From NCBI GenBank assembly GCA_916048095.2, contig OU696595.1:6203165-6267164 (forward strand): 64,000 nt of DNA, written 5' to 3'. This document shows, piece after piece, positions 1-64,000 of this stretch; within the stretch, counting starts at the first letter, position 1, and each line of letters opens with the position of its first letter. Source of the DNA: Sacculina carcini. Taxonomy: Eukaryota > Arthropoda > Thecostraca > Sacculinidae. A model generated the notes under the pieces. It was not told the DNA's origin. It saw only the letters and a program-made list of their open reading frames with translations, and made no database searches. Both the position numbers and the translations under genes were made by a program.

Positions 1-1056
1 AACACTTAGGGCACACTTAGGTAACACTTAGGTAACACTTAGGTAACACTTAGGTAACACTTAGGGCACACTTAGGTAACACTTATGTAACACTTAGGTA
101 ACATTTATGTAACACTTAGGTAACACTTAGGTAACACTTAGGTAACACTTAGGTAACACTTAGGTAACACTTAGGTAACACTTAGGGCACACTTAGGTAA
201 AACTTAGGGCACACTTAGGGCACACTTAGGTAACACTTAGGGCACACTTAGGTACACTTAGGTAACACTTAGGGCACACTTAGGCAACACTTAGGTAACA
301 CTTAGGGCACACTTAGGTAACACTTAGGGCACACTTAGGGAAGCACTTAGGGCACACTTAGGGCACACTTAGGTAACACTTAGGGCACACTTAGGTAACA
401 CTTAGGGCACACTTAGGTAACACTTAGGCACACTTAGGTAACACTTAGGGCACACTTAGTAACACTTAGGTAACACTTGAGGCACACTTAGTTAACACTT
501 AGGGTAACACTTAGGTAACACTTAGGGCACACTTAGGCAACACTTAGGGCACACTTAGGTAACACTTAGGTAACACTTAGGGCACACTTAGGGTACACTT
601 AGGTAACACTTGAGGCACACTTAGTTAACACTTAGGGCACACTTAGGGCACACTTAGGTAACACTTAGGTAACACTTAGGTAACACTTAGGTAACACTTA
701 GGTAACACTAGGGGTACACTTAGTTAACACTTAGGGCACACTTAGGTAACACTCAGGTAACACTTAGGGCACACTTAGGGCCAGGGCACACTTAGGGCAC
801 ACTTAGGTAACACTTGGGTTACACTTAGGTAACACTTAGGGTACACTTAGGTAACACTTAGGTAACACTTAGGTAACACTTAGGACACACTTAGGTAACA
901 CTTAGGTAACACTTAGGTAACACTTAGGGCACACTTAGGGCACACTTAGGTAACACTTAGGTATCACTTAGGGCACACTTAGGTAACACTTAGGGCACAC
1001 TTAGGTAACACTTAGGTAACACTTAGGTAACACTTAGGTAAACACTTAGGGTACAC
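1..1056 (+). repeat. Degenerate left margin of the array
   Basis: This stretch holds nearly all the monomers of wrong length that I found: 10-bp units near 251 (TTAGGTACAC), 425 (TTAGGCACAC) and 458 (TTAGTAACAC), 12-bp units near 340 (GGGAAGCACTTAGG) and 501 (TTAGGGTAACAC), a 6-bp unit GCCAGG near 779-784, and a 12-bp unit near 1026 (GGTAAACAC). A core altered to CACTAGGGG lies near 708. The landmark order (TTGAGG near 477, CTCAGG near 751, TTGGGTT near 815, TATCAC at 961) is the same as at about 4,027-4,530, so it is a worn copy of that block. Less homogenised, indel-bearing repeats are typical of array edges, so the true left boundary may lie close outside the window (inference). Confidence 0.85.
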
Positions 1057-1129
1057 TTAGTTAACACTTAGGGCACACTTAGGTAACACTTAGGTAACAC
1101 TTAGGGCACACTTAGGTAACACTTAGGGC

Positions 1130-2687
1130 ACACTTAGGTAACACTTAGGGCACACTTAGGTAACACTTATGTAACACTTAGGTAACACTTAGGTAACACT
1201 TAGGTAACACTTAGGGTACACTTAGGTAACACTTAGGGTACGCTTAGGTAACACTTAGGTAACACTTAGTTAACACTTAGGGCACACTTAGGTAACACTT
1301 AGGTAACACTTAGGGCACACTTAGGTAACACTTAGGGCACACTTAGGTAACACTTATGTAACACTTAGGTAACATTTATGTAACACTTAGGTAACACTTA
1401 GGTAACACTTAGGTAACACTTAGGTAACACTTAGGGCACACTTAGGTAACACTTAGGGCACACTTAGGTAACACTTAGGTAACACTTAGGTAACACTTAG
1501 GGTACACTTAGGTAACACTTAGGGTACACTTAGATAACACTTAGGTAACACTTAGGGCACGCTTAGGTAACACTTAGGGCACACTTAGGTAACACTTAGG
1601 GCACACTTAGGTAACACTTAGGGCACACTTAGGTAACACTTAGGTAACACTTAGGTAACACTTAGGTAACACTTAGGGTACACTTAGTTAACACTTAGGG
1701 CACACTTATGTAACACTTAGGTAACACTTAGGGCACACTTAGGTAACACTTAGGGCACACTTAGGTAAAACTTAGGGAATACTTAGGTAACACTTAGGGC
1801 ACACTTAGGGCATACTTAGGTAACACTTAGGTAACACTTAGGGCACACTTAGGTAACACTTAGGGCACACTTAGGTAACACTTAGGTAACACTTAGGGCA
1901 CACTTAGGTAACACTTAGGGCACACTTAGGTAACACTTAGGTAACACTTAGGTAACACTTAGGGCACACTTAGGTAACACTTAGGTAACACTTAGGTAAC
2001 ACTTAGGTAACACTTAGGGCACACTTAGGTAACACTTATGTAACACTTAGGTAACACTTAGGTAACACTTAGGTAACACTTAGGGTACACTTAGGTAACA
2101 CTTAGGGTACGCTTAGGTAACACTTAGGTAACACTTAGTTAACACTTAGGGCACACTTAGGTAACACTTAGGTAACACTTAGGGCACACTTAGGTAACAC
2201 TTAGGGCACACTTAGGTAACACTTATGTAACACTTAGGTAACATTTATGTAACACTTAGGTAACACTTAGGTAACACTTAGGTAACACTTAGGTAACACT
2301 TAGGGCACACTTAGGTAACACTTAGGGCACACTTAGGTAACACTTAGGTAACACTTAGGTAACACTTAGGTAACACTTAGGGTACACTTAGGTAACACTT
2401 AGGGTACACTTAGATAACACTTAGGTAACACTTAGGGCACGCTTAGGTAACACTTAGGGCACACTTAGGTAACACTTAGGGCACACTTAGGTAACACTTA
2501 GGGCACACTTAGGTAACACTTAGGTAACACTTAGGTAACACTTAGGTAACACTTAGGGTACACTTAGTTAACACTTAGGGCACACTTATGTAACACTTAG
2601 GTAACACTTAGGGCACACTTAGGTAACACTTAGGGCACACTTAGGTAAAACTTAGGGAATACTTAGGTAACACTTAGGGCACACTTA
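1130..2687 (+). repeat. 880-bp nested tandem duplication
   Basis: About 1,130-1,807 is repeated at about 2,000-2,687. TTAGATAAC lies at 1,534 and 2,414, and GAATAC at 1,777 and 2,657 (880 bp, 80 monomers); the GTACGC unit lies at 1,241 and 2,110 and the first TTATG at 1,167 and 2,036 (869 bp), so one monomer was gained or lost inside. The copies part where the first continues into GCATAC (1,811) and the second into GTACAC-TTAGTTAAC (about 2,700). The same nested pair is present again at about 7,510-9,060 in the second 6.37-kb copy, so it is older than the 6.37-kb duplication. Confidence 0.85.
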
Positions 2688-3875
2688 GGTAACACTTAGG
2701 GTACACTTAGTTAACACTTAGGGCACACTTAGGTAACACTCAGGTAACACTTAGGGCACACTTAGGGCACACTTAGGGCACACTTAGGTAACACTTGGGT
2801 TACACTTAGGTAACACTTAGGGTACACTTAGGTAACACTTAGGTAACACTTAGGGCACACTTAGGTAACACTTATGTAACACTTAGGTAACACTTAGGTA
2901 ACACTTAGGTAACACTTAGGTAACACTTAGGGTACACTTAGGTAACACTTAGGGTACGCTTAGGTAACACTTAGGTAACACTTAGTTAACACTTAGGGCA
3001 CACTTAGGTAACACTTAGGGCACACTTAGGTAACACTTAGGTAACACTTAGGTAACACTTAGGTAACACTTAGGGCACACTTAGGTAACACTTATGTAAC
3101 ACTTAGGTAACATTTATGTAACACTTAGGTAACACTTAGGTAACACTTAGGTAACACTTAGGTAACACTTAGGTAACACTTAGGTAACACTTAGGGCACA
3201 CTTAGGTAAAACTTAGGGCACACTTAGGTAACACTTAGGTAACACTTAGGGCACACTTAGGTAACACTTAGGGCACACTTAGGTAAAACTTAGGGCACAC
3301 TTAGGGCACACTTAGGTAACACTTAGGGCACACTTAGGTAACACTTAGTTAACACTTAGGGCACACTTAGGTAACACTTAGGTAACACTTAGGGCACACT
3401 TAGGTAACACTTAGGGCACACTTAGGTAACACTTATGTAACACTTAGGTAACACTTAGGTAACACTTAGGTAACACTTAGGTAACACTTAGGGTACACTT
3501 AGGTAACACTTAGGGTACGCTTAGGTAACACTTAGGTAACACTTAGTTAACACTTAGGGCACACTTAGGTAACACTTAGGTAACACTTAGGGCACACTTA
3601 GGTAACACTTAGGGCACACTTAGGTAACACTTATGTAACACTTAGGTAACATTTATGTAACACTTAGGTAACACTTAGGTAACACTTAGGTAACACTTAG
3701 GTAACACTTAGGTAACACTTAGGTAACACTTAGGGCACACTTAGGTAAAACTTAGGGCACACTTAGGGCACACTTAGGTAACACTTAGGGCACACTTAGG
3801 TAACACTTAGGTAACACTTAGGGCACACTTAGGCAACACTTAGGTAACACTTAGGGCACACTTAGGTAACACTTA

Positions 3876-3911
3876 GGGCACACTTAGGGCACACTTAGGG
3901 CACACTTAGGG
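3876..3911 (+). repeat. Run of four B monomers with four GGG tracts
   Basis: Four consecutive B monomers place GGG at 3,876, 3,887, 3,898 and 3,909, separated by 8-nt CACACTTA loops. The same run recurs in the equivalent place of most repeats, for example at 10,245-10,280 and 40,275-40,310, and near 6,700, 13,130, 15,800, 17,030, 20,830, 22,450, 30,350, 34,130, 37,920, 43,945, 47,873, 49,100, 51,960, 53,195, 56,225, 60,780 and 62,405. I did not see runs longer than four or five B units, whereas A units run to eight or nine. Confidence 0.8.
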
Positions 3912-6364
3912 CACACTTAGGTAACACTTAGGGCACACTTAGGTAACACTTAGGGCACACTTAGGTAACACTTAGGGCACACTTAGGTAACACTTAGGGC
4001 ACACTTAGGTAACACTTAGGTAACACTTGAGGCACACTTAGTTAACACTTAGGTAACACTTAGGTAACACTTAGGGCACACTTAGGCAACACTTAGGGCA
4101 CACTTAGGTAACACTTAGGGCACACTTAGGTAACACTTAGGGCACACTTAGGGTACACTTAGGTAACACTTGAGGCACACTTAGTTAACACTTAGGGCAC
4201 ACTTAGGGCACACTTAGGGCATACTTAGGTAACACTTAGGTAACACTTAGGTAACACTTAGGTAACACTTAGGTAACACTTAGGGTACACTTAGTTAACA
4301 CTTAGGGCACACTTAGGTAACACTCAGGTAACACTTAGGGCACACTTAGGGCACACTTAGGGCACACTTAGGTAACACTTGGGTTACACTTAGGTAACAC
4401 TTAGGGTACACTTAGGTAACACTTAGGTAACACTTAGGTAACACTTAGGACACACTTAGGTAACACTTAGGTAACACTTAGGTAACACTTAGGGCACACT
4501 TAGGGCACACTTAGGTAACACTTAGGTATCACTTAGGGCACACTTAGGTAACACTTAGGGCACACTTAGGTAACACTTAGGTAACACTTAGGTAACACTT
4601 AGGTAACACTTAGGGTACACTTAGTTAACACTTAGGGCACACTTAGGTAACACTTAGGTAACACTTAGGGCACACTTAGGTAACACTTAGGGCACACTTA
4701 GGTAACACTTAGGGCACACTTAGGTAACACTTATGTAACACTTAGGTAACACTTAGGTAACACTTAGGTAACACTTAGGGTACACTTAGGTAACACTTAG
4801 GGAACACTTAGGTAACACTTAGGTAACACTTAGTTAACACTTAGGGCACACTTAGGTAACACTTAGGTAACACTTAGGGCACACTTAGGTAACACTTAGG
4901 GCACACTTAGGTAACACTTATGTAACACTTAGGTAACATTTATGTAACACTTAGGTAACACTTAGGTAACACTTAGGTAACACTTAGGTAACACTTAGGG
5001 CACACTTAGGTAACACTTAGGGCACACTTAGGTAACACTTAGGTAACACTTAGGTAACACTTAGGGTACACTTAGGTAACACTTAGGGTACACTTAGATA
5101 ACACTTAGGTAACACTTAGGGCACGCTTAGGTAACACTTAGGGCACACTTAGGTAACACTTAGGGCACACTTAGGTAACACTTAGGGCACACTTAGGTAA
5201 CACTTAGGTAACACTTAGGTAACACTTAGGTAACACTTAGGGTACACTTAGTTAACACTTAGGGCACACTTATGTAACACTTAGGTAACACTTAGGGCAC
5301 ACTTAGGTAACACTTAGGGCACACTTAGGTAAAACTTAGGGAATACTTAGGTAACACTTAGGGCACACTTAGGGCATACTTAGGTAACACTTAGGTAACA
5401 CTTAGGGCACACTTAGGTAACACTTAGGGCACACTTAGGTAACACTTAGGTAACACTTAGGGCACACTTAGGTAACACTTAGGGCACACTTAGGTAACAC
5501 TTAGGTAACACTTAGGTAACACTTAGGGCACACTTAGGTAACACTTAGGTAACACTTAGGTAACACTTAGGTAACACTTAGGGCACACTTAGGTAACACT
5601 TAGGGCACACTTAGGTAACACTTAGGGCACACTTAGGTAACACTTAGGTAACACTTAGGGCACACTTAGGTAACACTTATGTAACACTTAGGTAACACTT
5701 AGGTAACATTTATGTAACACTTAGGTAACACTTAGGGCACACTTAGGTAACACTTAGGTAACACTTAGGTAACACTTAGGGCACACTTAGGTAACACTTA
5801 GGGTACACTTAGGTAACACTTAGGTAACACTTAGGGCACGCTTAGGTAACACTTAGGGCACACTTAGGCAACACTTAGGTAACACTTAGGTAACACTTAG
5901 GGCACACTTAGGTAACACTTAGGGCACACTTAGGGCACACTTAGGTAACACTTAGGGCACACTTAGGTAACACTTAGGTAACACTTAGGGCACACTTAGG
6001 CAACACTTAGGTAACACTTAGGGCACACTTAGGTAACACTTAGGGCACACTTAGGTAACACTTATGTAACACTTAGGTAACACTTAGGTAACACTTAGGT
6101 AACACTTAGGGTACACTTAGGTAACACTTAGGGTACGCTTAGGTAACACTTAGGTAACACTTAGTTAACACTTAGGGCACACTTAGGTAACACTTAGGTA
6201 ACACTTAGGGCACACTTAGGTAACACTTAGGGCACACTTAGGTAACACTTATGTAACACTTAGGTAACACTTAGGTAACACTTAGGTAACACTTAGGTAA
6301 CACTTAGGGTACACTTAGGTAACACTTAGGGTACGCTTAGGTAACACTTAGGTAACACTTAGTT

Positions 6365-14700: not shown

Positions 14701-15890
14701 GGCACACTTAGGTAACACTTAGGGCACACTTAGGTAACACTTAGGTAACACTTAGGGCACACTTAGGTAACACTTATGTAACACTTAGGTAACACTTAGG
14801 TAACATTTATGTAACACTTAGGTAACACTTAGGGCACACTTAGGTAACACTTAGGTAACACTTAGGTAACACTTAGGGCACACTTAGGTAACACTTAGGG
14901 TACACTTAGGTAACACTTAGGTAACACTTAGGGCACGCTTAGGTAACACTTAGGGCACACTTAGGCAACACTTAGGTAACACTTAGGTAACACTTAGGGC
15001 ACACTTAGGTAACACTTAGGGCACACTTAGGGCACACTTAGGTAACACTTAGGGCACACTTAGGTAACACTTAGGTAACACTTAGGGCACACTTAGGCAA
15101 CACTTAGGTAACAATTAGGTAACACTTAGGGCACACTTAGGTAACACTTAGGGCACACTTAGGTAACACTTATGTAACACTTAGGTAACACTTAGGTAAC
15201 ACTTAGGTAACACTTAGGTAACACTTAGGGTACACTTAGGTAACACTTAGGGTACGCTTAGGTAACACTTAGGTAACACTTAGTTAACACTTAGGGCACA
15301 CTTAGGTAACACTTAGGTAACACTTAGGGCACACTTAGGTAACACTTAGGGCACACTTAGGTAACACTTATGTAACACTTAGGTAACATTTATGTAACAC
15401 TTAGGTAACACTTAGGTAACACTTAGGTAACACTTAGGTAACACTTAGGTAACACTTAGGTAACACTTAGGTAACACTTAGGTAACACTTAGGACACACT
15501 TAGGTAACACTTAGGTAACACTTAGGGTACACTTAGGTAACACTTAGGTAACACTTAGGGCACACTTAGGTAACACTTAGGGCACACTTAGGTAACACTT
15601 AGGGCACACTTAGGCAACACTTAGGTAACACTTAGGTAACACTTAGGGCACACTTAGGTAACACTTAGGGCACACTTAGGGCACACTTAGGTAACACTTA
15701 GGGCACACTTAGGTAACACTTAGGTAACACTTAGGGCACACTTAGGCAACACTTAGGTAACACTTAGGGCACACTTAGGTAACACTTAGGGCACACTTAG
15801 GGCACACTTAGGGCACACTTAGGGCACACTTAGGTAACACTTAGGGCACACTTAGGTAACACTTAGGGCACACTTAGGTAACACTTAGGG
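10567..15890 (+). repeat. 2,662-bp higher-order repeat, two tandem copies
   Basis: Copy 1 is about 10,567-13,228 and copy 2 about 13,229-15,890. The offset is exactly 2,662 bp (242 monomers) at every landmark tested: GCATAC 10,589 and 13,251; CTCAGG 10,690 and 13,352; CACGC 11,744 and 14,406 and again 12,272 and 14,934; CATTTATG 12,143 and 14,805; GTACGC 12,591 and 15,253; TTAGGACAC 12,830 and 15,492. Differences are single bases: TTAGATAAC at 12,875 is TTAGGTAAC in copy 2, TTATGTATCAC near 13,553 replaces TTAGGTATCAC, and CAATTAGG occurs once near 15,113. Confidence 0.9.
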
Positions 15891-18800
15891 CACACTTAGG
15901 TAACACTTAGGGCACACTTAGGTAACACTTAGGTAACACTTGAGGCACACTTAGTTAACACTTAGGTAACACTTAGTTAACACTTAGGGCACACTTAGGC
16001 AACACTTAGGGCACACTTAGGTAACACTTAGGGCACACTTAGGTAACACTTAGGGCACACTTAGGGTACACTTAGGTAACACTTGAGGCACACTTAGTTA
16101 ACACTTAGGGCACACTTAGGGCACACTTAGGGCATACTTAGGTAACACTTAGGTAACACTTAGGTAACACTTAGGTAACACTTAGGTAACACTTAGGGTA
16201 CACTTAGTTAACACTTAGGGCACACTTAGGTAACACTCAGGTAACACTTAGGGCACACTTAGGGCACACTTAGGGCACACTTAGGTAACACTTGGGTTAC
16301 ACTTAGGTAACACTTAGGGTACACTTAGGTAACACTTAGGTAACACTTAGGTAACACTTAGGACACACTTAGGTAACACTTAGGTAACACTTAGGTAACA
16401 CTTAGGGCACACTTAGGTAACACTTAGGTAACACTTAGGTAACACTTAGGTAACACTTAGGGCACACTTAGGTAACACTTAGGGCACACTTAGGTAACAC
16501 TTAGGGCACACTTAGGTAACACTTAGGTAACACTTAGTTAACACTTAGGGCACACTTAGGTAACACTTAGGTAACACTTAGGGCACACTTAGGTAACACT
16601 TAGGGCACACTTAGGTAACACTTATGTAACACTTAGGTAACACTTAGGTAACACTTAGGTAACACTTAGGGTACACTTAGGTAACACTTAGGGTACGCTT
16701 AGGTAACACTTAGGTAACACTTAGTTAACACTTAGGGCACACTTAGGTAACACTTAGGTAACACTTAGGGCACACTTAGGTAACACTTAGGGCACACTTA
16801 GGTAACACTTATGTAACACTTAGGTAACATTTATGTAACACTTAGGTAACACTTAGGTAACACTTAGGTAACACTTAGGTAACACTTAGGTAACACTTAG
16901 GGCACACTTAGGTAACACTTAGGGCACACTTAGGGCACACTTAGGTAACACTTAGGTAACACTTAGGGCACACTTAGGCAACACTTAGGTAACACTTAGG
17001 GCACACTTAGGTAACACTTAGGGCACACTTAGGGCACACTTAGGGCACACTTAGGGCACACTTAGGTAACACTTAGGGCACACTTAGGTAACACTTAGGG
17101 CACACTTAGGTAACACTTAGGGCACACTTAGGTAACACTTAGGGCACACTTAGGTAACACTTAGGTAACACTTGAGGCACACTTAGTTAACACTTAGGTA
17201 ACACTTAGGTAACACTTAGGGCACACTTAGGCAACACTTAGGGCACACTTAGGTAACACTTAGGGCACACTTAGGTAACACTTAGGGCACACTTAGGGTA
17301 CACTTAGGTAACACTTGAGGCACACTTAGTTAACACTTAGGGCACACTTAGGGCACACTTAGGGCATACTTAGGTAACACTTAGGTAACACTTAGGGCAC
17401 ACTTAGGTAACACTTAGGGCACACTTAGGTAACACTTATGTAACACTTAGGTAACACTTAGGTAACACTTAGGTAACACTTAGGGTACACTTAGGTAACA
17501 CTTAGGGTACGCTTAGGTAACACTTAGGTAACACTTAGTTAACACTTAGGGCACACTTAGGTAACACTTAGGTAACACTTAGGGCACACTTAGGTAACAC
17601 TTAGGGCACACTTAGGTAACACTTATGTAACACTTAGGTAACATTTATGTAACACTTAGGTAACACTTAGGTAACACTTAGGTAACACTTAGGTAACACT
17701 TAGGTAACACTTAGGGCACACTTAGGTAACACTTAGGGCACACTTAGGGCACACTTAGGTAACACTTAGGTAACACTTAGGGCACACTTAGGTAACACTT
17801 AGGGCACACTTAGGTAACACTTATGTAACACTTAGGTAACATTTATGTAACACTTAGGTAACACTTAGGTAACACTTAGGTAACACTTAGGTAACACTTA
17901 GGGCACACTTAGGTAACACTTAGGGCACACTTAGGTAACACTTAGGTAACACTTAGGTAACACTTAGGGTACACTTAGGTAACACTTAGGGTACACTTAG
18001 ATAACACTTAGGTAACACTTAGGGCACGCTTAGGTAACACTTAGGGCACACTTAGGTAACACTTAGGGCACACTTAGGTAACACTTAGGGCACACTTAGG
18101 TAACACTTAGGTAACACTTAGGTAACACTTAGGTAACACTTAGGGTACACTTAGTTAACACTTAGGGCACACTTATGTAACACTTAGGTAACACTTAGGG
18201 CACACTTAGGTAACACTTAGGGCACACTTAGGTAAAACTTAGGGAATACTTAGGTAACACTTAGGGCACACTTAGGGCATACTTAGGTAACACTTAGGTA
18301 ACACTTAGGGCACACTTAGGTAACACTTAGGGCACACTTAGGTAACACTTAGGTAACACTTAGGGCACACTTAGGTAACACTTAGGGCACACTTAGGTAA
18401 CACTTAGGTAACACTTAGGTAACACTTAGGGCACACTTAGGTAACACTTAGGTAACACTTAGGTAACACTTAGGTAACACTTAGGGCACACTTAGGTAAC
18501 ACTTAGGGCACACTTAGGTAACACTTAGGGCACACTTAGGTAACACTTAGGTAACACTTAGGGCACACTTAGGTAACACTTATGTAACACTTAGGTAACA
18601 CTTAGGTAACATTTATGTAACACTTAGGTAACACTTAGGGCACACTTAGGTAACACTTAGGTAACACTTAGGTAACACTTAGGGCACACTTAGGTAACAC
18701 TTAGGGTACACTTAGGTAACACTTAGGTAACACTTAGGGCACGCTTAGGTAACACTTAGGGCACACTTAGGCAACACTTAGGTAACACTTAGGTAACACT

Positions 18801-27692: not shown

Positions 27693-30600
27693 TAACACTC
27701 AGGTAACACTTAGGGCACACTTAGGGCACACTTAGGGCACACTTAGGTAACACTTGGGTTACACTTAGGTAACACTTAGGGTACACTTAGGTAACACTTA
27801 GGTAACACTTAGGTAACACTTAGGACACACTTAGGTAACACTTAGGTAACACTTAGGTAACACTTAGGGCACACTTAGGGCACACTTAGGTAACACTTAG
27901 GTAACACTTAGGGCACACTTAGGTAACACTTAGGGCACACTTAGGTAACACTTAGGTAACACTTAGGTAACACTTAGGTAACACTTAGGGTACACTTAGT
28001 TAACACTTAGGGCACACTTAGGTAACACTTAGGTAACACTTAGGGCACACTTAGGTAACACTTAGGGCACACTTAGGTAACACTTATGTAACACTTAGGT
28101 AACACTTAGGTAACACTTAGGTAACACTTAGGTAACACTTAGGGTACACTTAGGTAACACTTAGGGTACACTTAGGTAACACTTAGGTAACACTTAGGTA
28201 ACACTTAGGGTACACTTAGGTAACACTTAGGTAACACTTAGGTAACACTTAGGGCACACTTAGTTAACACTTAGGGCACACTTAGGTAACACTTAGGTAA
28301 CACTTAGGGCACACTTAGGTAACACTTAGGGCACACTTAGGTAACACTTATGTAACACTTAGGTAACATTTATGTAACACTTAGGTAACACTTAGGTAAC
28401 ACTTAGGTAACACTTAGGTAACACTTAGGGCACACTTAGGTAACACTTAGGGCACACTTAGGTAACACTTAGGGCACACTTAGGTAACACTTAGGGCACA
28501 CTTAGGTAACACTTAGGTAACACTTGAGGCACACTTAGTTAACACTTAGGTAACACTTAGGTAACACTTAGGTAACACTTAGGTAACACTTAGGGTACAC
28601 TTAGGTAACACTTAGGTAACACTTAGGGCACGCTTATGTAACACTTAGGTAACACTTAGGTAACACTTAGGTAACACTTAGGTAACACTTAGGGCACACT
28701 TAGGTAACACTTAGGGCACACTTAGGGCACACTTAGGTAACACTTAGGGCACACTTAGGTAACACTTAGGGTACACTTAGGTAACACTTAGGGTACACTT
28801 AGATAACACTTAGGTAACACTTAGGGCACGCTTAGGTAACACTTAGGGCACACTTAGGTAACACTTAGGGCACACTTAGGTAACACTTAGGGCACACTTA
28901 GGTAACACTTAGGTAACACTTAGGTAACACTTAGGTAACACTTAGGGTACACTTAGGTAACACTTAGGTAACACTTAGGTAACACTTAGGGCACACTTAG
29001 GTAACACTTAGGTAACACTTAGGTAACACTTAGGTAACACTTAGGGCACACTTAGGTAACACTTAGGGCACACTTAGGTAACACTTAGGGCACACTTAGG
29101 TAACACTTAGGTAACACTTAGGGCACACTTAGGTAACACTTATGTAACACTTAGGTAACACTTAGGTAACATTTATGTAACACATAGGTAACACTTAGGG
29201 CACACTTAGGTAACACTTAGGTAACACTTAGGTAACACTTAGGTAACACTTAGGTAACACTTAGGTAACACTTAGGGTACACTTAGTTAACACTTAGGGC
29301 ACACTTAGGTAACACTCAGGTAACACTTAGGGCACACTTAGGGCACACTTAGGGCACACTTAGGTAACACTTGGGTTACACTTAGGTAACACTTAGGGTA
29401 CACTTAGGTAACACTTAGGTAACACTTAGGTAACACTTAGGACACACTTAGGTAACACTTAGGTAACACTTAGGGCACACTTAGGGCACACTTAGGTAAC
29501 ACTTAGGTAACACTTAGGGCACACTTAGGTAACACTTAGGGCACACTTAGGTAACACTTAGGTAACACTTAGGTAACACTTAGGTAACACTTAGGGTACA
29601 CTTAGTTAACACTTAGGGCACACTTAGGTAACACTTAGGTAACACTTAGGGCACACTTAGGTAACACTTAGGGCACACTTAGGTAACACTTATGTAACAC
29701 TTAGGTAACACTTAGGTAACACTTAGGTAACACTTAGGTAACACTTAGGGTACACTTAGGTAACACTTAGGGTACGCTTAGGTAACACTTAGGTAACACT
29801 TAGTTAACACTTAGGGCACACTTAGGTAACACTTAGGTAACACTTAGGGCACACTTAGGTAACACTTAGGGCACACTTAGGTAACACTTATGTAACACTT
29901 AGGTAACACTTAGGTAACACTTAGGTAACACTTAGGTAACACTTAGGGTACACTTAGGTAACACTTAGGGTACGCTTAGGTAACACTTAGGTAACACTTA
30001 GTTAACACTTAGGGCACACTTAGGTAACACTTAGGTAACACTTAGGGCACACTTAGGTAACACTTAGGGCACACTTAGGTAACACTTATGTAACACTTAG
30101 GTAACATTTATGTAACACTTAGGTAACACTTAGGTAACACTTAGGTAACACTTAGGTAACACTTAGGTAACACTTAGGTAACACTTAGGTAACACTTAGG
30201 GCACACTTAGGTAAAACTTAGGGCACACTTAGGGCACACTTAGGTAACACTTAGGGCACACTTAGGTAACACTTAGGTAACACTTAGGGCACACTTAGGC
30301 AACACTTAGGTAACACTTAGGGCACACTTAGGTAACACTTAGGGCACACTTAGGGCACACTTAGGGCACACTTAGGGCACACTTAGGTAACACTTAGGGC
30401 ACACTTAGGTAACACTTAGGGCACACTTAGGTAACACTTAGGGCACACTTAGGTAACACTTAGGGCACACTTAGGTAACACTTAGGTAACACTTGAGGCA
30501 CACTTAGTTAACACTTAGGTAACACTTAGGTAACACTTAGGGCACACTTAGGCAACACTTAGGGCACACTTAGGTAACACTTAGGGCACACTTAGGTAAC

Positions 30601-30714
30601 ACTTAGGGCACACTTAGGGTACACTTAGGTAACACTTGAGGCACACTTAGTTAACACTTAGGGCACACTTAGGGCACACTTAGGGCATACTTAGGTAACA
30701 CTTAGGTAACACTT
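26931..30714 (+). repeat. 3,784-bp higher-order repeat, copy 1 of 3
   Basis: This is the start of the most regular block. Its landmarks are CACGCTTATG at 27,223 and 28,631 (1,408 bp apart), CTCAGG at 27,696 and 29,313, the private CACATAGG unit at 29,183, paired GTACGC units at 29,773 and 29,971, and two TTGAGG units near 30,491 and 30,637 followed by GCATAC near 30,686. Each recurs exactly 3,784 bp (344 monomers) downstream. Copy 1 has TAACAC near 27,901 where the other two copies have TATCAC. Confidence 0.93.
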
Positions 30715-33700
30715 AGGTAACACTTAGGTAACACTTAGGGCACACTTAGGCAACACTTAGGTAACACTTAGGTAACACTTAGGGCACACTTAGGTAACAC
30801 TTAGGGCACACTTAGGGCACACTTAGGGCACACTTAGGTAACACTTAGGGCACACTTAGGTAACACTTAGGGCACACTTAGGTAACACTTAGGTAACACT
30901 TGAGGCACACTTAGTTAACACTTAGGTAACACTTAGGTAACACTTAGGTAACACTTAGGTAACACTTAGGGTACACTTAGGTAACACTTAGGTAACACTT
31001 AGGGCACGCTTATGTAACACTTAGGTAACACTTAGGTAACACTTAGGTAACACTTAGGTAACACTTAGGGCACACTTAGGTAACACTTAGGGCACACTTA
31101 GGGCACACTTAGGTAACACTTAGGGCACACTTAGGTAACACTTAGGGTACACTTAGGTAACACTTAGGGTACACTTAGATAACACTTAGGTAACACTTAG
31201 GGCACGCTTAGGTAACACTTAGGGCACACTTAGGTAACACTTAGGGCACACTTAGGTAACACTTAGGGCACACTTAGGTAACACTTAGGTAACACTTAGG
31301 TAACACTTAGGTAACACTTAGGGTACACTTAGGTAACACTTAGGTAACACTTAGGTAACACTTAGGGCACACTTAGGTAACACTTAGGTAACACTTAGGT
31401 AACACTTAGGTAACACTTAGGGCACACTTAGGTAACACTTAGGGCACACTTAGGTAACACTTAGGGCACACTTAGGTAACACTCAGGTAACACTTAGGGC
31501 ACACTTAGGGCACACTTAGGGCACACTTAGGTAACACTTGGGTTACACTTAGGTAACACTTAGGGTACACTTAGGTAACACTTAGGTAACACTTAGGTAA
31601 CACTTAGGACACACTTAGGTAACACTTAGGTAACACTTAGGTAACACTTAGGGCACACTTAGGGCACACTTAGGTAACACTTAGGTATCACTTAGGGCAC
31701 ACTTAGGTAACACTTAGGGCACACTTAGGTAACACTTAGGTAACACTTAGGTAACACTTAGGTAACACTTAGGGTACACTTAGTTAACACTTAGGGCACA
31801 CTTAGGTAACACTTAGGTAACACTTAGGGCACACTTAGGTAACACTTAGGGCACACTTAGGTAACACTTATGTAACACTTAGGTAACACTTAGGTAACAC
31901 TTAGGTAACACTTAGGTAACACTTAGGGTACACTTAGGTAACACTTAGGGTACACTTAGGTAACACTTAGGTAACACTTAGGTAACACTTAGGGTACACT
32001 TAGGTAACACTTAGGTAACACTTAGGTAACACTTAGGGCACACTTAGTTAACACTTAGGGCACACTTAGGTAACACTTAGGTAACACTTAGGGCACACTT
32101 AGGTAACACTTAGGGCACACTTAGGTAACACTTATGTAACACTTAGGTAACATTTATGTAACACTTAGGTAACACTTAGGTAACACTTAGGTAACACTTA
32201 GGTAACACTTAGGGCACACTTAGGTAACACTTAGGGCACACTTAGGTAACACTTAGGGCACACTTAGGTAACACTTAGGGCACACTTAGGTAACACTTAG
32301 GTAACACTTGAGGCACACTTAGTTAACACTTAGGTAACACTTAGGTAACACTTAGGTAACACTTAGGTAACACTTAGGGTACACTTAGGTAACACTTAGG
32401 TAACACTTAGGGCACGCTTATGTAACACTTAGGTAACACTTAGGTAACACTTAGGTAACACTTAGGTAACACTTAGGGCACACTTAGGTAACACTTAGGG
32501 CACACTTAGGGCACACTTAGGTAACACTTAGGGCACACTTAGGTAACACTTAGGGTACACTTAGGTAACACTTAGGGTACACTTAGATAACACTTAGGTA
32601 ACACTTAGGGCACGCTTAGGTAACACTTAGGGCACACTTAGGTAACACTTAGGGCACACTTAGGTAACACTTAGGGCACACTTAGGTAACACTTAGGTAA
32701 CACTTAGGTAACACTTAGGTAACACTTAGGGTACACTTAGGTAACACTTAGGTAACACTTAGGTAACACTTAGGGCACACTTAGGTAACACTTAGGTAAC
32801 ACTTAGGTAACACTTAGGTAACACTTAGGGCACACTTAGGTAACACTTAGGGCACACTTAGGTAACACTTAGGGCACACTTAGGTAACACTTAGGTAACA
32901 CTTAGGGCACACTTAGGTAACACTTATGTAACACTTAGGTAACACTTAGGTAACATTTATGTAACACATAGGTAACACTTAGGGCACACTTAGGTAACAC
33001 TTAGGTAACACTTAGGTAACACTTAGGTAACACTTAGGTAACACTTAGGTAACACTTAGGGTACACTTAGTTAACACTTAGGGCACACTTAGGTAACACT
33101 CAGGTAACACTTAGGGCACACTTAGGGCACACTTAGGGCACACTTAGGTAACACTTGGGTTACACTTAGGTAACACTTAGGGTACACTTAGGTAACACTT
33201 AGGTAACACTTAGGTAACACTTAGGACACACTTAGGTAACACTTAGGTAACACTTAGGGCACACTTAGGGCACACTTAGGTAACACTTAGGTAACACTTA
33301 GGGCACACTTAGGTAACACTTAGGGCACACTTAGGTAACACTTAGGTAACACTTAGGTAACACTTAGGTAACACTTAGGGTACACTTAGTTAACACTTAG
33401 GGCACACTTAGGTAACACTTAGGTAACACTTAGGGCACACTTAGGTAACACTTAGGGCACACTTAGGTAACACTTATGTAACACTTAGGTAACACTTAGG
33501 TAACACTTAGGTAACACTTAGGTAACACTTAGGGTACACTTAGGTAACACTTAGGGTACGCTTAGGTAACACTTAGGTAACACTTAGTTAACACTTAGGG
33601 CACACTTAGGTAACACTTAGGTAACACTTAGGGCACACTTAGGTAACACTTAGGGCACACTTAGGTAACACTTATGTAACACTTAGGTAACACTTAGGTA

Positions 33701-34498
33701 ACACTTAGGTAACACTTAGGTAACACTTAGGGTACACTTAGGTAACACTTAGGGTACGCTTAGGTAACACTTAGGTAACACTTAGTTAACACTTAGGGCA
33801 CACTTAGGTAACACTTAGGTAACACTTAGGGCACACTTAGGTAACACTTAGGGCACACTTAGGTAACACTTATGTAACACTTAGGTAACATTTATGTAAC
33901 ACTTAGGTAACACTTAGGTAACACTTAGGTAACACTTAGGTAACACTTAGGTAACACTTAGGTAACACTTAGGTAACACTTAGGGCACACTTAGGTAAAA
34001 CTTAGGGCACACTTAGGGCACACTTAGGTAACACTTAGGGCACACTTAGGTAACACTTAGGTAACACTTAGGGCACACTTAGGCAACACTTAGGTAACAC
34101 TTAGGGCACACTTAGGTAACACTTAGGGCACACTTAGGGCACACTTAGGGCACACTTAGGGCACACTTAGGTAACACTTAGGGCACACTTAGGTAACACT
34201 TAGGGCACACTTAGGTAACACTTAGGGCACACTTAGGTAACACTTAGGGCACACTTAGGTAACACTTAGGTAACACTTGAGGCACACTTAGTTAACACTT
34301 AGGTAACACTTAGGTAACACTTAGGGCACACTTAGGCAACACTTAGGGCACACTTAGGTAACACTTAGGGCACACTTAGGTAACACTTAGGGCACACTTA
34401 GGGTACACTTAGGTAACACTTGAGGCACACTTAGTTAACACTTAGGGCACACTTAGGGCACACTTAGGGCATACTTAGGTAACACTTAGGTAACACTT
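30715..34498 (+). repeat. 3,784-bp higher-order repeat, copy 2 of 3
   Basis: Landmarks: CACGCTTATG at 31,007 and 32,415, CTCAGG at 31,480 and 33,097, CACATAGG at 32,967, GTACGC at about 33,557 and 33,755, TTGAGG at about 34,277 and 34,421, GCATAC at 34,470. All lie 3,784 bp from their partners in copies 1 and 3. I saw no register change within the copy. Confidence 0.93.
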
Positions 34499-37400
34499 AG
34501 GTAACACTTAGGTAACACTTAGGGCACACTTAGGCAACACTTAGGTAACACTTAGGTAACACTTAGGGCACACTTAGGTAACACTTAGGGCACACTTAGG
34601 GCACACTTAGGGCACACTTAGGTAACACTTAGGGCACACTTAGGTAACACTTAGGGCACACTTAGGTAACACTTAGGTAACACTTGAGGCACACTTAGTT
34701 AACACTTAGGTAACACTTAGGTAACACTTAGGTAACACTTAGGTAACACTTAGGGTACACTTAGGTAACACTTAGGTAACACTTAGGGCACGCTTATGTA
34801 ACACTTAGGTAACACTTAGGTAACACTTAGGTAACACTTAGGTAACACTTAGGGCACACTTAGGTAACACTTAGGGCACACTTAGGGCACACTTAGGTAA
34901 CACTTAGGGCACACTTAGGTAACACTTAGGGTACACTTAGGTAACACTTAGGGTACACTTAGATAACACTTAGGTAACACTTAGGGCACGCTTAGGTAAC
35001 ACTTAGGGCACACTTAGGTAACACTTAGGGCACACTTAGGTAACACTTAGGGCACACTTAGGTAACACTTAGGTAACACTTAGGTAACACTTAGGTAACA
35101 CTTAGGGTACACTTAGGTAACACTTAGGTAACACTTAGGTAACACTTAGGGCACACTTAGGTAACACTTAGGTAACACTTAGGTAACACTTAGGTAACAC
35201 TTAGGGCACACTTAGGTAACACTTAGGGCACACTTAGGTAACACTTAGGGCACACTTAGGTAACACTCAGGTAACACTTAGGGCACACTTAGGGCACACT
35301 TAGGGCACACTTAGGTAACACTTGGGTTACACTTAGGTAACACTTAGGGTACACTTAGGTAACACTTAGGTAACACTTAGGTAACACTTAGGACACACTT
35401 AGGTAACACTTAGGTAACACTTAGGTAACACTTAGGGCACACTTAGGGCACACTTAGGTAACACTTAGGTATCACTTAGGGCACACTTAGGTAACACTTA
35501 GGGCACACTTAGGTAACACTTAGGTAACACTTAGGTAACACTTAGGTAACACTTAGGGTACACTTAGTTAACACTTAGGGCACACTTAGGTAACACTTAG
35601 GTAACACTTAGGGCACACTTAGGTAACACTTAGGGCACACTTAGGTAACACTTATGTAACACTTAGGTAACACTTAGGTAACACTTAGGTAACACTTAGG
35701 TAACACTTAGGGTACACTTAGGTAACACTTAGGGTACACTTAGGTAACACTTAGGTAACACTTAGGTAACACTTAGGGTACACTTAGGTAACACTTAGGT
35801 AACACTTAGGTAACACTTAGGGCACACTTAGTTAACACTTAGGGCACACTTAGGTAACACTTAGGTAACACTTAGGGCACACTTAGGTAACACTTAGGGC
35901 ACACTTAGGTAACACTTATGTAACACTTAGGTAACATTTATGTAACACTTAGGTAACACTTAGGTAACACTTAGGTAACACTTAGGTAACACTTAGGGCA
36001 CACTTAGGTAACACTTAGGGCACACTTAGGTAACACTTAGGGCACACTTAGGTAACACTTAGGGCACACTTAGGTAACACTTAGGTAACACTTGAGGCAC
36101 ACTTAGTTAACACTTAGGTAACACTTAGGTAACACTTAGGTAACACTTAGGTAACACTTAGGGTACACTTAGGTAACACTTAGGTAACACTTAGGGCACG
36201 CTTATGTAACACTTAGGTAACACTTAGGTAACACTTAGGTAACACTTAGGTAACACTTAGGGCACACTTAGGTAACACTTAGGGCACACTTAGGGCACAC
36301 TTAGGTAACACTTAGGGCACACTTAGGTAACACTTAGGGTACACTTAGGTAACACTTAGGGTACACTTAGATAACACTTAGGTAACACTTAGGGCACGCT
36401 TAGGTAACACTTAGGGCACACTTAGGTAACACTTAGGGCACACTTAGGTAACACTTAGGGCACACTTAGGTAACACTTAGGTAACACTTAGGTAACACTT
36501 AGGTAACACTTAGGGTACACTTAGGTAACACTTAGGTAACACTTAGGTAACACTTAGGGCACACTTAGGTAACACTTAGGTAACACTTAGGTAACACTTA
36601 GGTAACACTTAGGGCACACTTAGGTAACACTTAGGGCACACTTAGGTAACACTTAGGGCACACTTAGGTAACACTTAGGTAACACTTAGGGCACACTTAG
36701 GTAACACTTATGTAACACTTAGGTAACACTTAGGTAACATTTATGTAACACATAGGTAACACTTAGGGCACACTTAGGTAACACTTAGGTAACACTTAGG
36801 TAACACTTAGGTAACACTTAGGTAACACTTAGGTAACACTTAGGGTACACTTAGTTAACACTTAGGGCACACTTAGGTAACACTCAGGTAACACTTAGGG
36901 CACACTTAGGGCACACTTAGGGCACACTTAGGTAACACTTGGGTTACACTTAGGTAACACTTAGGGTACACTTAGGTAACACTTAGGTAACACTTAGGTA
37001 ACACTTAGGACACACTTAGGTAACACTTAGGTAACACTTAGGGCACACTTAGGGCACACTTAGGTAACACTTAGGTAACACTTAGGGCACACTTAGGTAA
37101 CACTTAGGGCACACTTAGGTAACACTTAGGTAACACTTAGGTAACACTTAGGTAACACTTAGGGTACACTTAGTTAACACTTAGGGCACACTTAGGTAAC
37201 ACTTAGGTAACACTTAGGGCACACTTAGGTAACACTTAGGGCACACTTAGGTAACACTTATGTAACACTTAGGTAACACTTAGGTAACACTTAGGTAACA
37301 CTTAGGTAACACTTAGGGTACACTTAGGTAACACTTAGGGTACGCTTAGGTAACACTTAGGTAACACTTAGTTAACACTTAGGGCACACTTAGGTAACAC

Positions 37401-38282
37401 TTAGGTAACACTTAGGGCACACTTAGGTAACACTTAGGGCACACTTAGGTAACACTTATGTAACACTTAGGTAACACTTAGGTAACACTTAGGTAACACT
37501 TAGGTAACACTTAGGGTACACTTAGGTAACACTTAGGGTACGCTTAGGTAACACTTAGGTAACACTTAGTTAACACTTAGGGCACACTTAGGTAACACTT
37601 AGGTAACACTTAGGGCACACTTAGGTAACACTTAGGGCACACTTAGGTAACACTTATGTAACACTTAGGTAACATTTATGTAACACTTAGGTAACACTTA
37701 GGTAACACTTAGGTAACACTTAGGTAACACTTAGGTAACACTTAGGTAACACTTAGGTAACACTTAGGGCACACTTAGGTAAAACTTAGGGCACACTTAG
37801 GGCACACTTAGGTAACACTTAGGGCACACTTAGGTAACACTTAGGTAACACTTAGGGCACACTTAGGCAACACTTAGGTAACACTTAGGGCACACTTAGG
37901 TAACACTTAGGGCACACTTAGGGCACACTTAGGGCACACTTAGGGCACACTTAGGTAACACTTAGGGCACACTTAGGTAACACTTAGGGCACACTTAGGT
38001 AACACTTAGGGCACACTTAGGTAACACTTAGGGCACACTTAGGTAACACTTAGGTAACACTTGAGGCACACTTAGTTAACACTTAGGTAACACTTAGGTA
38101 ACACTTAGGGCACACTTAGGCAACACTTAGGGCACACTTAGGTAACACTTAGGGCACACTTAGGTAACACTTAGGGCACACTTAGGGTACACTTAGGTAA
38201 CACTTGAGGCACACTTAGTTAACACTTAGGGCACACTTAGGGCACACTTAGGGCATACTTAGGTAACACTTAGGTAACACTT
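34499..38282 (+). repeat. 3,784-bp higher-order repeat, copy 3 of 3
   Basis: Landmarks: CACGCTTATG at 34,791 and 36,199, CTCAGG at 35,264 and 36,881, CACATAGG at 36,751, GTACGC at about 37,341 and 37,539, TTGAGG at 38,061 and 38,205, GCATAC at 38,254. Periodicity stops just after GCATAC: copies 1 and 2 lead into a CAACAC unit, while copy 3 leads into GTACAC-TTAGTTAAC near 38,318. The block is therefore almost exactly three whole repeats. Confidence 0.93.
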
Positions 38283-38630
38283 AGGTAACACTTAGGTAAC
38301 ACTTAGGTAACACTTAGGGTACACTTAGTTAACACTTAGGGCACACTTAGGTAACACTCAGGTAACACTTAGGGCACACTTAGGGCACACTTAGGGCACA
38401 CTTAGGTAACACTTGGGTTACACTTAGGTAACACTTAGGGTACACTTAGGTAACACTTAGGTAACACTTAGGTAACACTTAGGTAACACTTAGGTAACAC
38501 TTAGGTAACACTTAGGTAACACTTAGGGTACACTTAGTTAACACTTAGGGCACACTTAGGTAACACTCAGGTAACACTTAGGGCACACTTAGGGCACACT
38601 TAGGGCACACTTAGGTAACACTTAGGTATC
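38283..38630 (+). repeat. 209-bp tandem duplication
   Basis: The string TTAGTTAAC, B, CTCAGG, three B units occurs twice, with CTCAGG at 38,355 and 38,564 (209 bp, 19 monomers). The first copy continues into the usual TTGGGTT unit (about 38,412), but the second jumps to TATCAC (38,627), which is normally about 150 bp further on. This looks like an exchange between two nearby parts of the same repeat; the TTGGGTT-TTAGGACAC stretch is missing after the second copy. A third CTCAGG copy in normal context follows at 39,246. Confidence 0.85.
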
Positions 38631-58150: not shown

Positions 58151-60075
58151 GTAACATTTATGTAACACTTAGGTAACACTTAGGTAACACTTAGGTAACA
58201 CTTAGGTAACACTTAGGTAACACTTAGGGCACACTTAGGTAACACTTAGGGCACACTTAGGGCACACTTAGGTAACATTTAGGTAACACTTAGGGCACAC
58301 TTAGGCAACACTTAGGTAACACTTAGGGCACACTTAGGTAACACTTAGGGTACGCTTAGGTAACACTTAGGTAACACTTAGTTAACACTTAGGGCACACT
58401 TAGGTAACACTTAGGTAACACTTAGGGCACACTTAGGTAACACTTAGGGCACACTTAGGTAACACTTATGTAACACTTAGGTAACATTTATGTAACACTT
58501 AGGTAACACTTAGGTAACACTTAGGTAACACTTAGGTAACACTTAGGTAACACTTAGGGCACACTTAGGTAACACTTAGGGCACACTTAGGGCACACTTA
58601 GGTAACACTTAGGTAACACTTAGGGCACACTTAGGCAACACTTAGGTAACACTTAGGGCACACTTAGGTAACACTTAGGGCACACTTAGGGCACACTTAG
58701 GGCACACTTAGGTAACACTTAGGGCACACTTAGGGCACACTTAGGGCACACTTAGGTAACACTTGGGTTACACTTAGGTAACACTTAGGGTACACTTAGG
58801 TAACACTTAGGTAACACTTAGGTAACACTTAGGACACACTTAGGTAACACTTAGGTAACACTTAGGTAACACTTAGGGCACACTTAGGGCACACTTAGGT
58901 AACACTTAGGTATCACTTAGGGCACACTTAGGTAACACTTAGGGCACACTTAGGTAACACTTAGGTAACACTTAGGTAACACTTAGGTAACACTTAGGGT
59001 ACACTTAGTTAACACTTAGGGCACACTTAGGTAACACTTAGGTAACACTTAGGGCACACTTAGGTAACACTTAGGGCACACTTAGGTAACACTTATGTAA
59101 CACTTAGGTAATACTTAGGTAACACTTAGGTAACACTTAGGGTACACTTAGGTAACACTTAGGGTACGCTTAGGTAACACTTAGGTAACACTTAGTTAAC
59201 ACTTAGGGCACACTTAGGTAACACTTAGGTAACACTTAGGGCACACTTAGGTAACACTTAGGGCACACTTAGGTAACATTTATGTAACACTTAGGTAACA
59301 CTTAGGTAACACTTAGGTAACACTTAGGTAACACTTAGGGCACACTTAGGTAACACTTAGGGCACACTTAGGTAACACTTAGGTAACACTTAGGTAACAC
59401 TTAGGGTACACTTAGGTAACACTTAGGGTACACTTAGATAACACTTAGGTAACACTTAGGGCACGCTTAGGTAACACTTAGGGCACACTTAGGTAACACT
59501 TAGGGCACACTTAGGTAACACTTAGGGCACACTTAGGTAACACTTAGGTAACACTTAGGTAACACTTAGGTAACACTTAGGGTACACTTAGTTAACACTT
59601 AGGGCACACTTATGTAACACTTAGGTAACACTTAGGGCACACTTAGGTAACACTTAGGGCACACTTAGGTAAAACTTAGGGAATACTTAGGTAACACTTA
59701 GGGCACACTTAGGGCATACTTAGGTAACACTTAGGTAACACTTAGGGCACACTTAGGTAACACTTAGGGCACACTTAGGTAACACTTAGGTAACACTTAG
59801 GGCACACTTAGGTAACACTTAGGGCACACTTAGGTAACACTTAGGTAACACTTAGGTAACACTTAGGGCACACTTAGGTAACACTTAGGTAACACTTAGG
59901 TAACACTTAGGTAACACTTAGGGCACACTTAGGTAACACTTAGGGCACACTTAGGTAACACTTAGGGCACACTTAGGTAACACTTAGGTAACACTTAGGG
60001 CACACTTAGGTAACACTTATGTAACACTTAGGTAACACTTAGGTAACATTTATGTAACACTTAGGTAACACTTAG
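57188..60075 (+). repeat. 2,090-bp offset pair
   Basis: About 57,188-57,985 matches about 59,278-60,075. CATTTATG lies at 57,188 and 59,278, TTAGATAAC at 57,348 and 59,438, GAATAC at 57,591 and 59,681, and the second CATTTATG at 57,958 and 60,048; the offset is 2,090 bp (190 monomers). To the left the offset of the GTACGC units is 2,112 bp (57,053 and 59,165), a change of two monomers. Confidence 0.87.
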
Positions 60076-62340
60076 GTAACACTTAGGTAACACTTAGGGT
60101 ACACTTAGTTAACACTTAGGGCACACTTAGGTAACACTTAGGTAACACTTAGGTAACACTTAGGTAACACTTAGGGCACACTTAGGGCACACTTAGGTAA
60201 CACTTAGGTATCACTTAGGGCACACTTAGGTAACACTTAGGGCACACTTAGGTAACACTTAGGTAACACTTAGGTAACACTTAGGTAACACTTAGGGTAC
60301 ACTTAGTTAACACTTAGGGCACACTTAGGTAACACTTAGGTAACACTTAGGGCACACTTAGGTAACACTTAGGGCACACTTAGGTAACACTTATGTAACA
60401 CTTAGGTAACACTTAGGTAACACTTAGGTAACACTTAGGGTACACTTAGGTAACACTTAGGGTACGCTTAGGTAACACTTAGGTAACACTTAGTTAACAC
60501 TTAGGGCACACTTAGGTAACACTTAGGGCACACTTAGGTAACACTTATGTAACACTTAGGTAACATTTATGTAACACTTAGGTAACACTTAGGTAACACT
60601 TAGGTAACACTTAGGTAACACTTAGGGCACACTTAGGTAACACTTAGGGCACACTTAGGGCACACTTAGGTAACACTTAGGGCACACTTAGGTAACATTT
60701 AGGTAACACTTAGGGCACACTTAGGCAACACTTAGGTAACACTTAGGGCACACTTAGGTAACACTTAGGGCACACTTAGGGCACACTTAGGGCACACTTA
60801 GGGCACACTTAGGTAACACTTAGGGCACACTTAGGTAACACTTAGGGCACACTTAGGTAACACTTAGGGCACACTTAGGTAACACTTAGGGCACACTTAG
60901 GTAACACTTAGGTAACACTTGAGGCACACTTAGTTAACACTTAGGTAACACTTAGGTAACACTTAGGGCACACTTAGGCAACACTTAGGGCACACTTAGG
61001 TAACACTTAGGGCACACTTAGGTAACACTTAGGGCACACTTAGGGTACACTTAGGTAACACTTAGGGTACACTTAGGTAACACTTAGGGTACGCTTAGGT
61101 AACACTTAGGTAACACTTAGTTAACACTTAGGGCACACTTAGGTAACACTTAGGTAACACTTAGGGCACACTTAGGTAACACTTAGGGCACACTTAGGTA
61201 ACACTTATGTAACACTTAGGTAACACTTAGGTAACACTTAGGTAACACTTAGGGTACACTTAGGTAACACTTAGGGTACGCTTAGGTAACACTTAGGTAA
61301 CACTTAGTTAACACTTAGGGCACACTTAGGTAACACTTAGGTAACACTTAGGGCACACTTAGGTAACACTTAGGGCACACTTAGGTAACATTTATGTAAC
61401 ACTTAGGTAACACTTAGGTAACACTTAGGGCACACTTAGGTAACACTTAGGGCACACTTAGGTAACACTTAGGTAACACTTAGGTAACACTTAGGGCACA
61501 CTTAGGTAACACTTAGGTAACACTTAGGTAACACTTAGGTAACACTTAGGGCACACTTAGGTAACACTTAGGGCACACTTAGGTAACACTTAGGGCACAC
61601 TTAGGTAACACTTAGGTAACACTTAGGGCACACTTAGGTAACACTTATGTAACACTTAGGTAACACTTAGGTAACATTTATGTAACACTTAGGTAACACT
61701 TAGGTAACACTTAGGTAACACTTAGGGTACACTTAGTTAACACTTAGGGCACACTTAGGTAACACTTAGGTAACACTTAGGTAACACTTAGGTAACACTT
61801 AGGGCACACTTAGGGCACACTTAGGTAACACTTAGGTATCACTTAGGGCACACTTAGGTAACACTTAGGGCACACTTAGGTAACACTTAGGTAACACTTA
61901 GGTAACACTTAGGTAACACTTAGGGTACACTTAGTTAACACTTAGGGCACACTTAGGTAACACTTAGGTAACACTTAGGGCACACTTAGGTAACACTTAG
62001 GGCACACTTAGGTAACACTTATGTAACACTTAGGTAACACTTAGGTAACACTTAGGTAACACTTAGGGTACACTTAGGTAACACTTAGGGTACGCTTAGG
62101 TAACACTTAGGTAACACTTAGTTAACACTTAGGGCACACTTAGGTAACACTTAGGGCACACTTAGGTAACACTTATGTAACACTTAGGTAACATTTATGT
62201 AACACTTAGGTAACACTTAGGTAACACTTAGGTAACACTTAGGTAACACTTAGGGCACACTTAGGTAACACTTAGGGCACACTTAGGGCACACTTAGGTA
62301 ACACTTAGGGCACACTTAGGTAACATTTAGGTAACACTTA
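58260..62340 (+). repeat. CATTTAGG-bearing block, three copies
   Basis: The rare unit CATTTAGG, with the core CACTTAGG changed by one base and without the usual TTATG, occurs near 58,276, 60,696 and 62,325, each time just after a BB-A-B-A or similar run and just before a CAACAC unit. Outside this area it is found near 22,373 and 56,143 only. It marks a sublineage of the repeat concentrated in the last 8 kb of the window, with one distant relative at 22 kb. Confidence 0.75.
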
Positions 62341-64000
62341 GGGCACACTTAGGCAACACTTAGGTAACACTTAGGGCACACTTAGGTAACACTTAGGGCA
62401 CACTTAGGGCACACTTAGGGCACACTTAGGGCACACTTAGGTAACACTTAGGGCACACTTAGGTAACACTTAGGGCACACTTAGGTAACACTTAGGGCAC
62501 ACTTAGGTAACACTTAGGGCACACTTAGGTAACACTTAGGTAACACTTGAGGCACACTTAGTTAACACTTAGGTAACACTTAGGTAACACTTAGGGCACA
62601 CTTAGGCAACACTTAGGGCACACTTAGGTAACACTTAGGGCACACTTAGGTAACACTTAGGGCACACTTAGGGTACACTTAGGTAACACTTAGGGTACAC
62701 TTAGGTAACACTTAGGGTACGCTTAGGTAACACTTAGGTAACACTTAGTTAACACTTAGGGCACACTTAGGTAACACTTAGGTAACACTTAGGGCACACT
62801 TAGGTAACACTTAGGGCACACTTAGGTAACACTTATGTAACACTTAGGTAACACTTAGGTAACACTTAGGTAACACTTAGGGTACACTTAGGTAACACTT
62901 AGGGTACGCTTAGGTAACACTTAGGTAACACTTAGTTAACACTTAGGGCACACTTAGGTAACACTTAGGTAACACTTAGGGCACACTTAGGTAACACTTA
63001 GGGCACACTTAGGTAACATTTATGTAACACTTAGGTAACACTTAGGTAACACTTAGGTAACACTTAGGTAACACTTAGGGCACACTTAGGTAACACTTAG
63101 GGCACACTTAGGTAACACTTAGGTAACACTTAGGTAACACTTAGGGTACACTTAGGTAACACTTAGGGTACACTTAGATAACACTTAGGTAACACTTAGG
63201 GCACGCTTAGGTAACACTTAGGGCACACTTAGGTAACACTTAGGGCACACTTAGGTAACACTTAGGGCACACTTAGGTAACACTTAGGTAACACTTAGGT
63301 AACACTTAGGTAACACTTAGGGTACACTTAGTTAACACTTAGGGCACACTTATGTAACACTTAGGTAACACTTAGGGCACACTTAGGTAACACTTAGGGC
63401 ACACTTAGGTAAAACTTAGGGAATACTTAGGTAACACTTAGGGCACACTTAGGGCATACTTAGGTAACACTTAGGTAACACTTAGGGCACACTTAGGTAA
63501 CACTTAGGGCACACTTAGGTAACACTTAGGTAACACTTAGGGCACACTTAGGTAACACTTAGGGCACACTTAGGTAACACTTAGGTAACACTTAGGTAAC
63601 ACTTAGGGCACACTTAGGTAACACTTAGGTAACACTTAGGTAACACTTAGGTAACACTTAGGGCACACTTAGGTAACACTTAGGGCACACTTAGGTAACA
63701 CTTAGGGCACACTTAGGTAACACTTAGGTAACACTTAGGGCACACTTAGGTAACACTTATGTAACACTTAGGTAACACTTAGGTAACATTTATGTAACAC
63801 TTAGGTAACACTTAGGTAACACTTAGGTAACACTTAGGGTACACTTAGTTAACACTTAGGGCACACTTAGGTAACACTTAGGTAACACTTAGGTAACACT
63901 TAGGTAACACTTAGGGCACACTTAGGGCACACTTAGGTAACACTTAGGTATCACTTAGGGCACACTTAGGTAACACTTAGGGCACACTTAGGTAACACTT
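58800..64000 (+). repeat. 3,740-bp repeat made of 1,628- and 2,112-bp steps
   Basis: About 59,150-60,260 matches about 62,890-64,000 at 3,740 bp (340 monomers): GTACGC 59,165 and 62,905, TTAGATAAC 59,438 and 63,178, GAATAC 59,681 and 63,421, CATTTATG 60,048 and 63,788, TATCAC 60,208 and 63,948. A third partial copy lies between them, 1,628 bp (148 monomers) from one and 2,112 bp (192 monomers) from the other: TATCAC at 61,836 and CATTTATG at 61,390 and 61,676. The right copy is cut by the window end, so the array continues beyond it. Confidence 0.87.

Follow-up and report, generated by a model that had tools for sequence, protein, structure and literature searches.

The window, by which is meant the whole stretch of 64,000 bases analysed here, is occupied from end to end by one satellite array of about 5819 units, each of 11 bp and all in a single orientation on the forward strand. 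The array and the part of it in which every unit could be assigned to a fixed register are as follows.

1..64000, + strand: 11-bp satellite array with consensus NNACACTTAGG, defined by lag identity, string counts and unit decomposition
1051..63992, + strand: 5722 consecutive units of 32 types in an unbroken 11-bp register, from a fixed-register count

Self-identity across the window is 0.861 at a lag of 11 bases and 0.904 at a lag of 22. The string TTAGG is found 5267 times on the forward strand and CCTAA not at all; each of the 32 bins of 2 kb contains between 158 and 170 copies of TTAGG and none of the reverse core. The unbroken, one-orientation array of 11-bp units described in the initial annotation is therefore borne out by lag identity, bin counts and 5722 in-register units alike.

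Two unit types predominate: TAACACTTAGG (n = 3179) and GCACACTTAGG (n = 1507) together make up 4686 of the 5722 units. Twenty-six of the 32 types recur, being present in at least two copies, and the other six are singletons. The exact core ACACTTAGG is retained in 4985 units, the remaining 737 deviating from it by between one and three bases. All 5218 CACTTAG strings found past position 1060 share one phase, and not one of the units from position 1051 onwards has gained or lost a base, despite substitutions being common. An apparent pairing of 12-bp and 10-bp units was rejected as an alignment artefact, the fixed register giving TAACACTTGAG followed by GCACACTTAGT. The 6-mers TTAGGT, TTAGGG, TTAGGC and TTAGGA occur 3189, 1971, 76 and 31 times in the window, and therefore the strings named in the initial annotation, which attributed them to a variable base after TTAGG, are indeed present. 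The variable positions are not free, however, as the two bases concerned are TA in 3606 units, GC in 1649 and GT in 318, a total of 5573 out of 5722.

No open reading frame of at least 30 amino acids, open ends included, is found in the 64-kb window; neither is any tRNA gene or any match to an Rfam family at the gathering score. The absence of genes claimed from first inspection of the array is in agreement with all three scans, which leave a gene-free unit in a head-to-tail array 64 kb long, as expected of a satellite. A coding role was rejected on the additional grounds that the unit carries a stop on both strands and that 11 is not a multiple of three. A role for hairpins was likewise rejected: in a small sample of four single-strand DNA folds of 130 nt, taken from both strands at two places, every fold was weaker than the shuffle mean (z from +1.5 to +2.7).

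The level of organisation overlooked in the initial annotation lies above that of the unit. Rare unit types return in fixed orders of considerable length, and do so at several levels, among them 22 bp, blocks some tens of units long and a unit of 3784 bp. The diverged unit types are thus arranged in the fixed multi-unit order that defines a higher-order repeat. Examples are listed below.

27905..38307, + strand: 3784-bp (344-unit) higher-order repeat in approximately 2.75 exact tandem copies, seen as a 6619-bp exact repeat at an offset of 3784
2340..4802, + strand: 2463-bp segment with an exact copy 6369 bp downstream
15540..17792, + strand: 2253-bp segment with an exact copy 32076 bp downstream
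59771..61429, + strand: 1659-bp segment with an exact copy 1628 bp (148 units) downstream

Eighteen offsets, eight of them spanning 28-41 kb, show an exact repeat of 1200 bp or longer; the 6619-bp repeat, beginning at base 27905, is the longest. At a smaller scale, blocks are observed repeatedly, one of 20 units that includes several rare types being present 29 times, one of 40 units 13 times and one of 60 units nine times.

Dividing the array into 57 windows of 100 units and searching for the best copy of each elsewhere reveals a match of at least 99 out of 100 units for 31 windows, of which 22 are perfect, and of at least 95 for 36. For the other 21, the best ungapped copy matches at only 68-93 units, although these scores are depressed by the gain or loss of units inside a window as well as by age, because the comparison is ungapped. 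A single order generated by a first-order Markov process gave best copies of just 50-55 (15 windows), so long near-exact copies are present in excess. A Lempel-Ziv (LZ) parse resolves the unit order into 177 phrases; three shuffles of it need 893-900, three first-order Markov orders 787-801 and three third-order ones 577-592. Large blocks have been copied recently, as this unit order shows. Singleton types number just six over 62,942 bp (6 of 5722 units), which suggests that few private mutations have arisen since the last round of copying; this count is a minimum, given that a mutation producing a type already present goes unseen.

The turnover of such an array was simulated through tandem duplication and deletion of segments in arrays of 5722 units, using five seeds per setting. 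The starting mix, the number of new variants and the numbers of events were chosen by hand, hence these simulations are illustrations and not fits. On the four measures used, the observed array has an LZ count of 177, a median best copy of 99, a copy scoring 95/100 or better for 10 of 15 windows and a longest exact repeat of 601 units. In all 10 runs with a mean segment of 350 or 700 units (3.9 or 7.7 kb), LZ counts were 140-211, median best copies 91-100 and longest exact repeats 283-1196 units, and 5-13 of the 15 windows had a copy scoring 95/100 or better. Mean segments of 10, 50 or 150 units gave LZ counts of 257-526, medians of 67-92 and longest repeats of 98-393 units, while a slippage-like mean of two units gave 257-317, 85-98 and 194-389 units respectively, the medians in this last case being fairly high. 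Laying the observed unit types at random (five runs) resulted in LZ counts of 873-902, medians of 53-55 and longest repeats of 16-19 units. Only the two multi-kilobase settings, out of seven in all, cover the observed values on all four measures. A separate set of single-run simulations pointed in the same direction for LZ counts and copies, but produced 23-93 unit types against the 32 observed, and the share of the second unit was often off.

The interpretation that very probably holds is that this is a non-coding heterochromatic satellite of a eukaryote, turned over mainly by the in-register exchange or amplification of multi-kilobase blocks, in which TTAGG is most likely a chance resemblance. 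An 11-bp seed would have given rise to a mixture dominated by two unit types and carrying a 22-bp bias, and this in turn to longer blocks. Turnover would then have proceeded mainly as multi-kilobase blocks were exchanged unequally in register, or amplified as segments in an equivalent way, with each rare unit variant being spread within a fixed context as the block around it was copied. The copying itself may have occurred by unequal crossing-over, by conversion or by rolling-circle reinsertion, all three of which leave the same mark. The array would be packaged as heterochromatin, most likely beside a centromere or in some other region poor in genes. The classification as a satellite made in the initial annotation is supported by the long in-register array without genes; its proposal of a telomere-derived origin is not, given the absence of telomere-type strings, the ease with which TTAGG arises in shuffled units and the nested order of the blocks.

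The resemblance of TTAGG to telomere repeats is probably due to chance, the alternative that the initial annotation had itself allowed. Shuffling the letters of the two main units produces TTAGG or CCTAA in 91 and 77 of 4000 cases respectively (around 2%), and at least six bases in common with one of 13 telomere motifs in 712 and 810 of 4000. None of nine telomere-type strings, comprising tandem doublets and triplets and two long motifs, is present on either strand of the window, so none of these is found in tandem or as a remnant; a motif as yet undescribed is conceivable. This counts against a telomere motif, or telomere-like seed, as the ancestor of what is now an ordinary satellite maintained by recombination. 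Such an ancestry is to be counted among the readings because 11-bp telomere motifs containing TTAGG exist, and because one rotation of the main unit resembles a further 11-bp telomere unit. PMC10632776 gives TTAGGTCTGGG, which begins with TTAGG, as the 11-bp motif of aculeate Hymenoptera, and the present unit has both this length and TTAGG in common with it, although the exact motif is absent from the window. PMC10085805 describes an 11-bp telomere unit, ACTTGGGTTAC, mixed with a 9-bp form in the fission yeast S. osmophilus; when the main unit is rotated to ACTTAGGTAAC, the two have 9 of 11 bases in common as a raw count. The block structure is also compatible with a telomeric seed. Given how readily the core match is reproduced by shuffling, an origin of this kind nevertheless appears very unlikely.

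Another alternative is that the long-range order is an artefact of assembly, in which a repeat graph was walked several times and true blocks were multiplied. The 6619-bp exact repeat is a feature of the sort that assemblers can multiply, and the beginning of the window appears unpolished.

1..1040, + strand: segment that departs from its best copy by six 1-bp indels and a 6-bp insertion, from the alignment of 1-1100 to 6365-7480

This alignment contains five substitutions and two 11-bp deletions in addition to the seven off-register changes. By comparison, indels of a size other than 11 bp are found in none of 15 other samples of 1100 bases, in which the number of substitutions ranges from 0 to 29. 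All seven register shifts lie between 253 and 1043, and the register is constant thereafter. Because all seven off-register indels fall within 1-1040, it is probable that the window begins at the end of a contig, where read coverage was scant or unpolished, perhaps at contig base 1, to judge from the bases themselves. It is possible that these bases instead represent the true degenerate edge of the array, in which case more substitutions would be expected. On the other side, the majority of the 18 long exact repeats measure 1.2-2.9 kb and lie at many different offsets, and many copies of the 100-unit windows show scattered unit changes of the kind expected from genuine divergence. An assembly artefact is regarded as a highly improbable source of the order.

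There is a slimmer chance again that an 11-bp telomere motif since lost or altered, consisting of TTAGG and six further bases as in some Hymenoptera, survives in this unit as a fossil and is now kept as a satellite of tens of kilobases by block recombination; were this the case, the array would record how repeats once made by telomerase came to be made by recombination. The order and nesting of the blocks are those of a satellite driven by recombination and not of telomerase output, for which near-uniform units from one template or a random mix of template forms, rather than 32 types in repeated long orders, would be anticipated. Least probable of all is a working telomere maintained by a telomerase with an 11-nucleotide template motif: TTAGG is present in most units, in one orientation, over tens of kilobases, and motifs of this length are known from the Hymenoptera and S. 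osmophilus cases above, the latter with its 9/11 agreement, and from insects more widely (up to 11 nucleotides; PMC12036569), but the unit order is far more repetitive than any of the five random layings, at least a second template or a high error rate would be required to produce two main types and 24 recurrent variants, and GG, counted by copies, is the part of the core most often changed (269 and 214 of 5722, against 4-100 at the seven other positions).

A pattern scan of IMG/VR gave no matches, and a blastn search of phages and plasmids with 2 kb of the 64 kb as the query also returned none. The scan of GTDB identified three loci (L001, L002 and L003) with one match each, relative to a chance expectation of about seven, calculated for a pattern with 18 fixed bases and both strands of 257 billion bases. 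L001 (near 874) and L003 (near 679, minus strand) have an exact 802-base stretch in common around the match; their contig titles name one Saccharibacteria MAG and one unclassified bacterium MAG. Neither has a tandem repeat within 44 bases on either side of the match. At L002, in Paraburkholderia ribeironis, positions 6823-6959 hold 12.5 tandem copies of an 11-bp unit, GACACTCAGGC, which extend over 137 bp with 76% matches. Its period and a unit near to the core resemble the present array, two of its units being exactly ACACTTAGG, but it is bacterial and just 12.5 copies long; this tandem surfaced because it fits the search pattern, and the likeness is likely to be a coincidence. In the literature, 24 of the 44 possible 11-letter unit strings, covering 19 of the 22 that derive from the main unit and five of the 22 from the second, and judged by title, gave no satellite title among the matches listed. 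A telomere-titled match, PMC11677240, was discarded when the matching string proved to be a PCR primer for a human gene. The text of PMC8977481 contains no word starting with TTAGGT, ACAC, 11-bp or satellite, and a literature search for a satellite of the HSat3 type returned no match, while one for 11-bp satellites or repeat units led to work on fission-yeast telomeres and on N. gonorrhoeae. In relation to these viral, bacterial and plasmid collections and literature titles, the sequence is probably new, while the array is a satellite of an ordinary kind in which recent amplification is unusually legible.

Satellites with short units rarely display their history this clearly. Since around two dozen marker variants recur, the register is unbroken and one-off variants are few, single block duplications can be traced over 60 kb, and this array is well suited to the testing of models of satellite turnover, although no new kind of function is demonstrable from the sequence of the array alone. 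In alpha-satellite higher-order repeats, diverged unit types in a fixed order likewise form near-identical multi-unit copies, the units there being of approximately 171 bp as opposed to 11 bp. The 11-bp telomeres of Hymenoptera and S. osmophilus consist of uniform or randomly mixed units, in contrast to the nested block order found here. The nearest known pattern is that of the human HSat2 and HSat3 family, including DYZ1, to which the present array is unrelated in sequence. In that family a very short seed, CATTC, is likewise carried in multi-kilobase units, of 3.6 kb in DYZ1 and 1.77 kb in the HSat2 of chromosome 1, and changes in array size through unequal exchange or conversion are expected (PMC4022460). 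The differences from that description are that the human seed is 5 bp in length whereas the units here are of 11 bp, that the 3784-bp unit is present in about 2.75 copies within the window, and that several block lengths are mixed within the one array.
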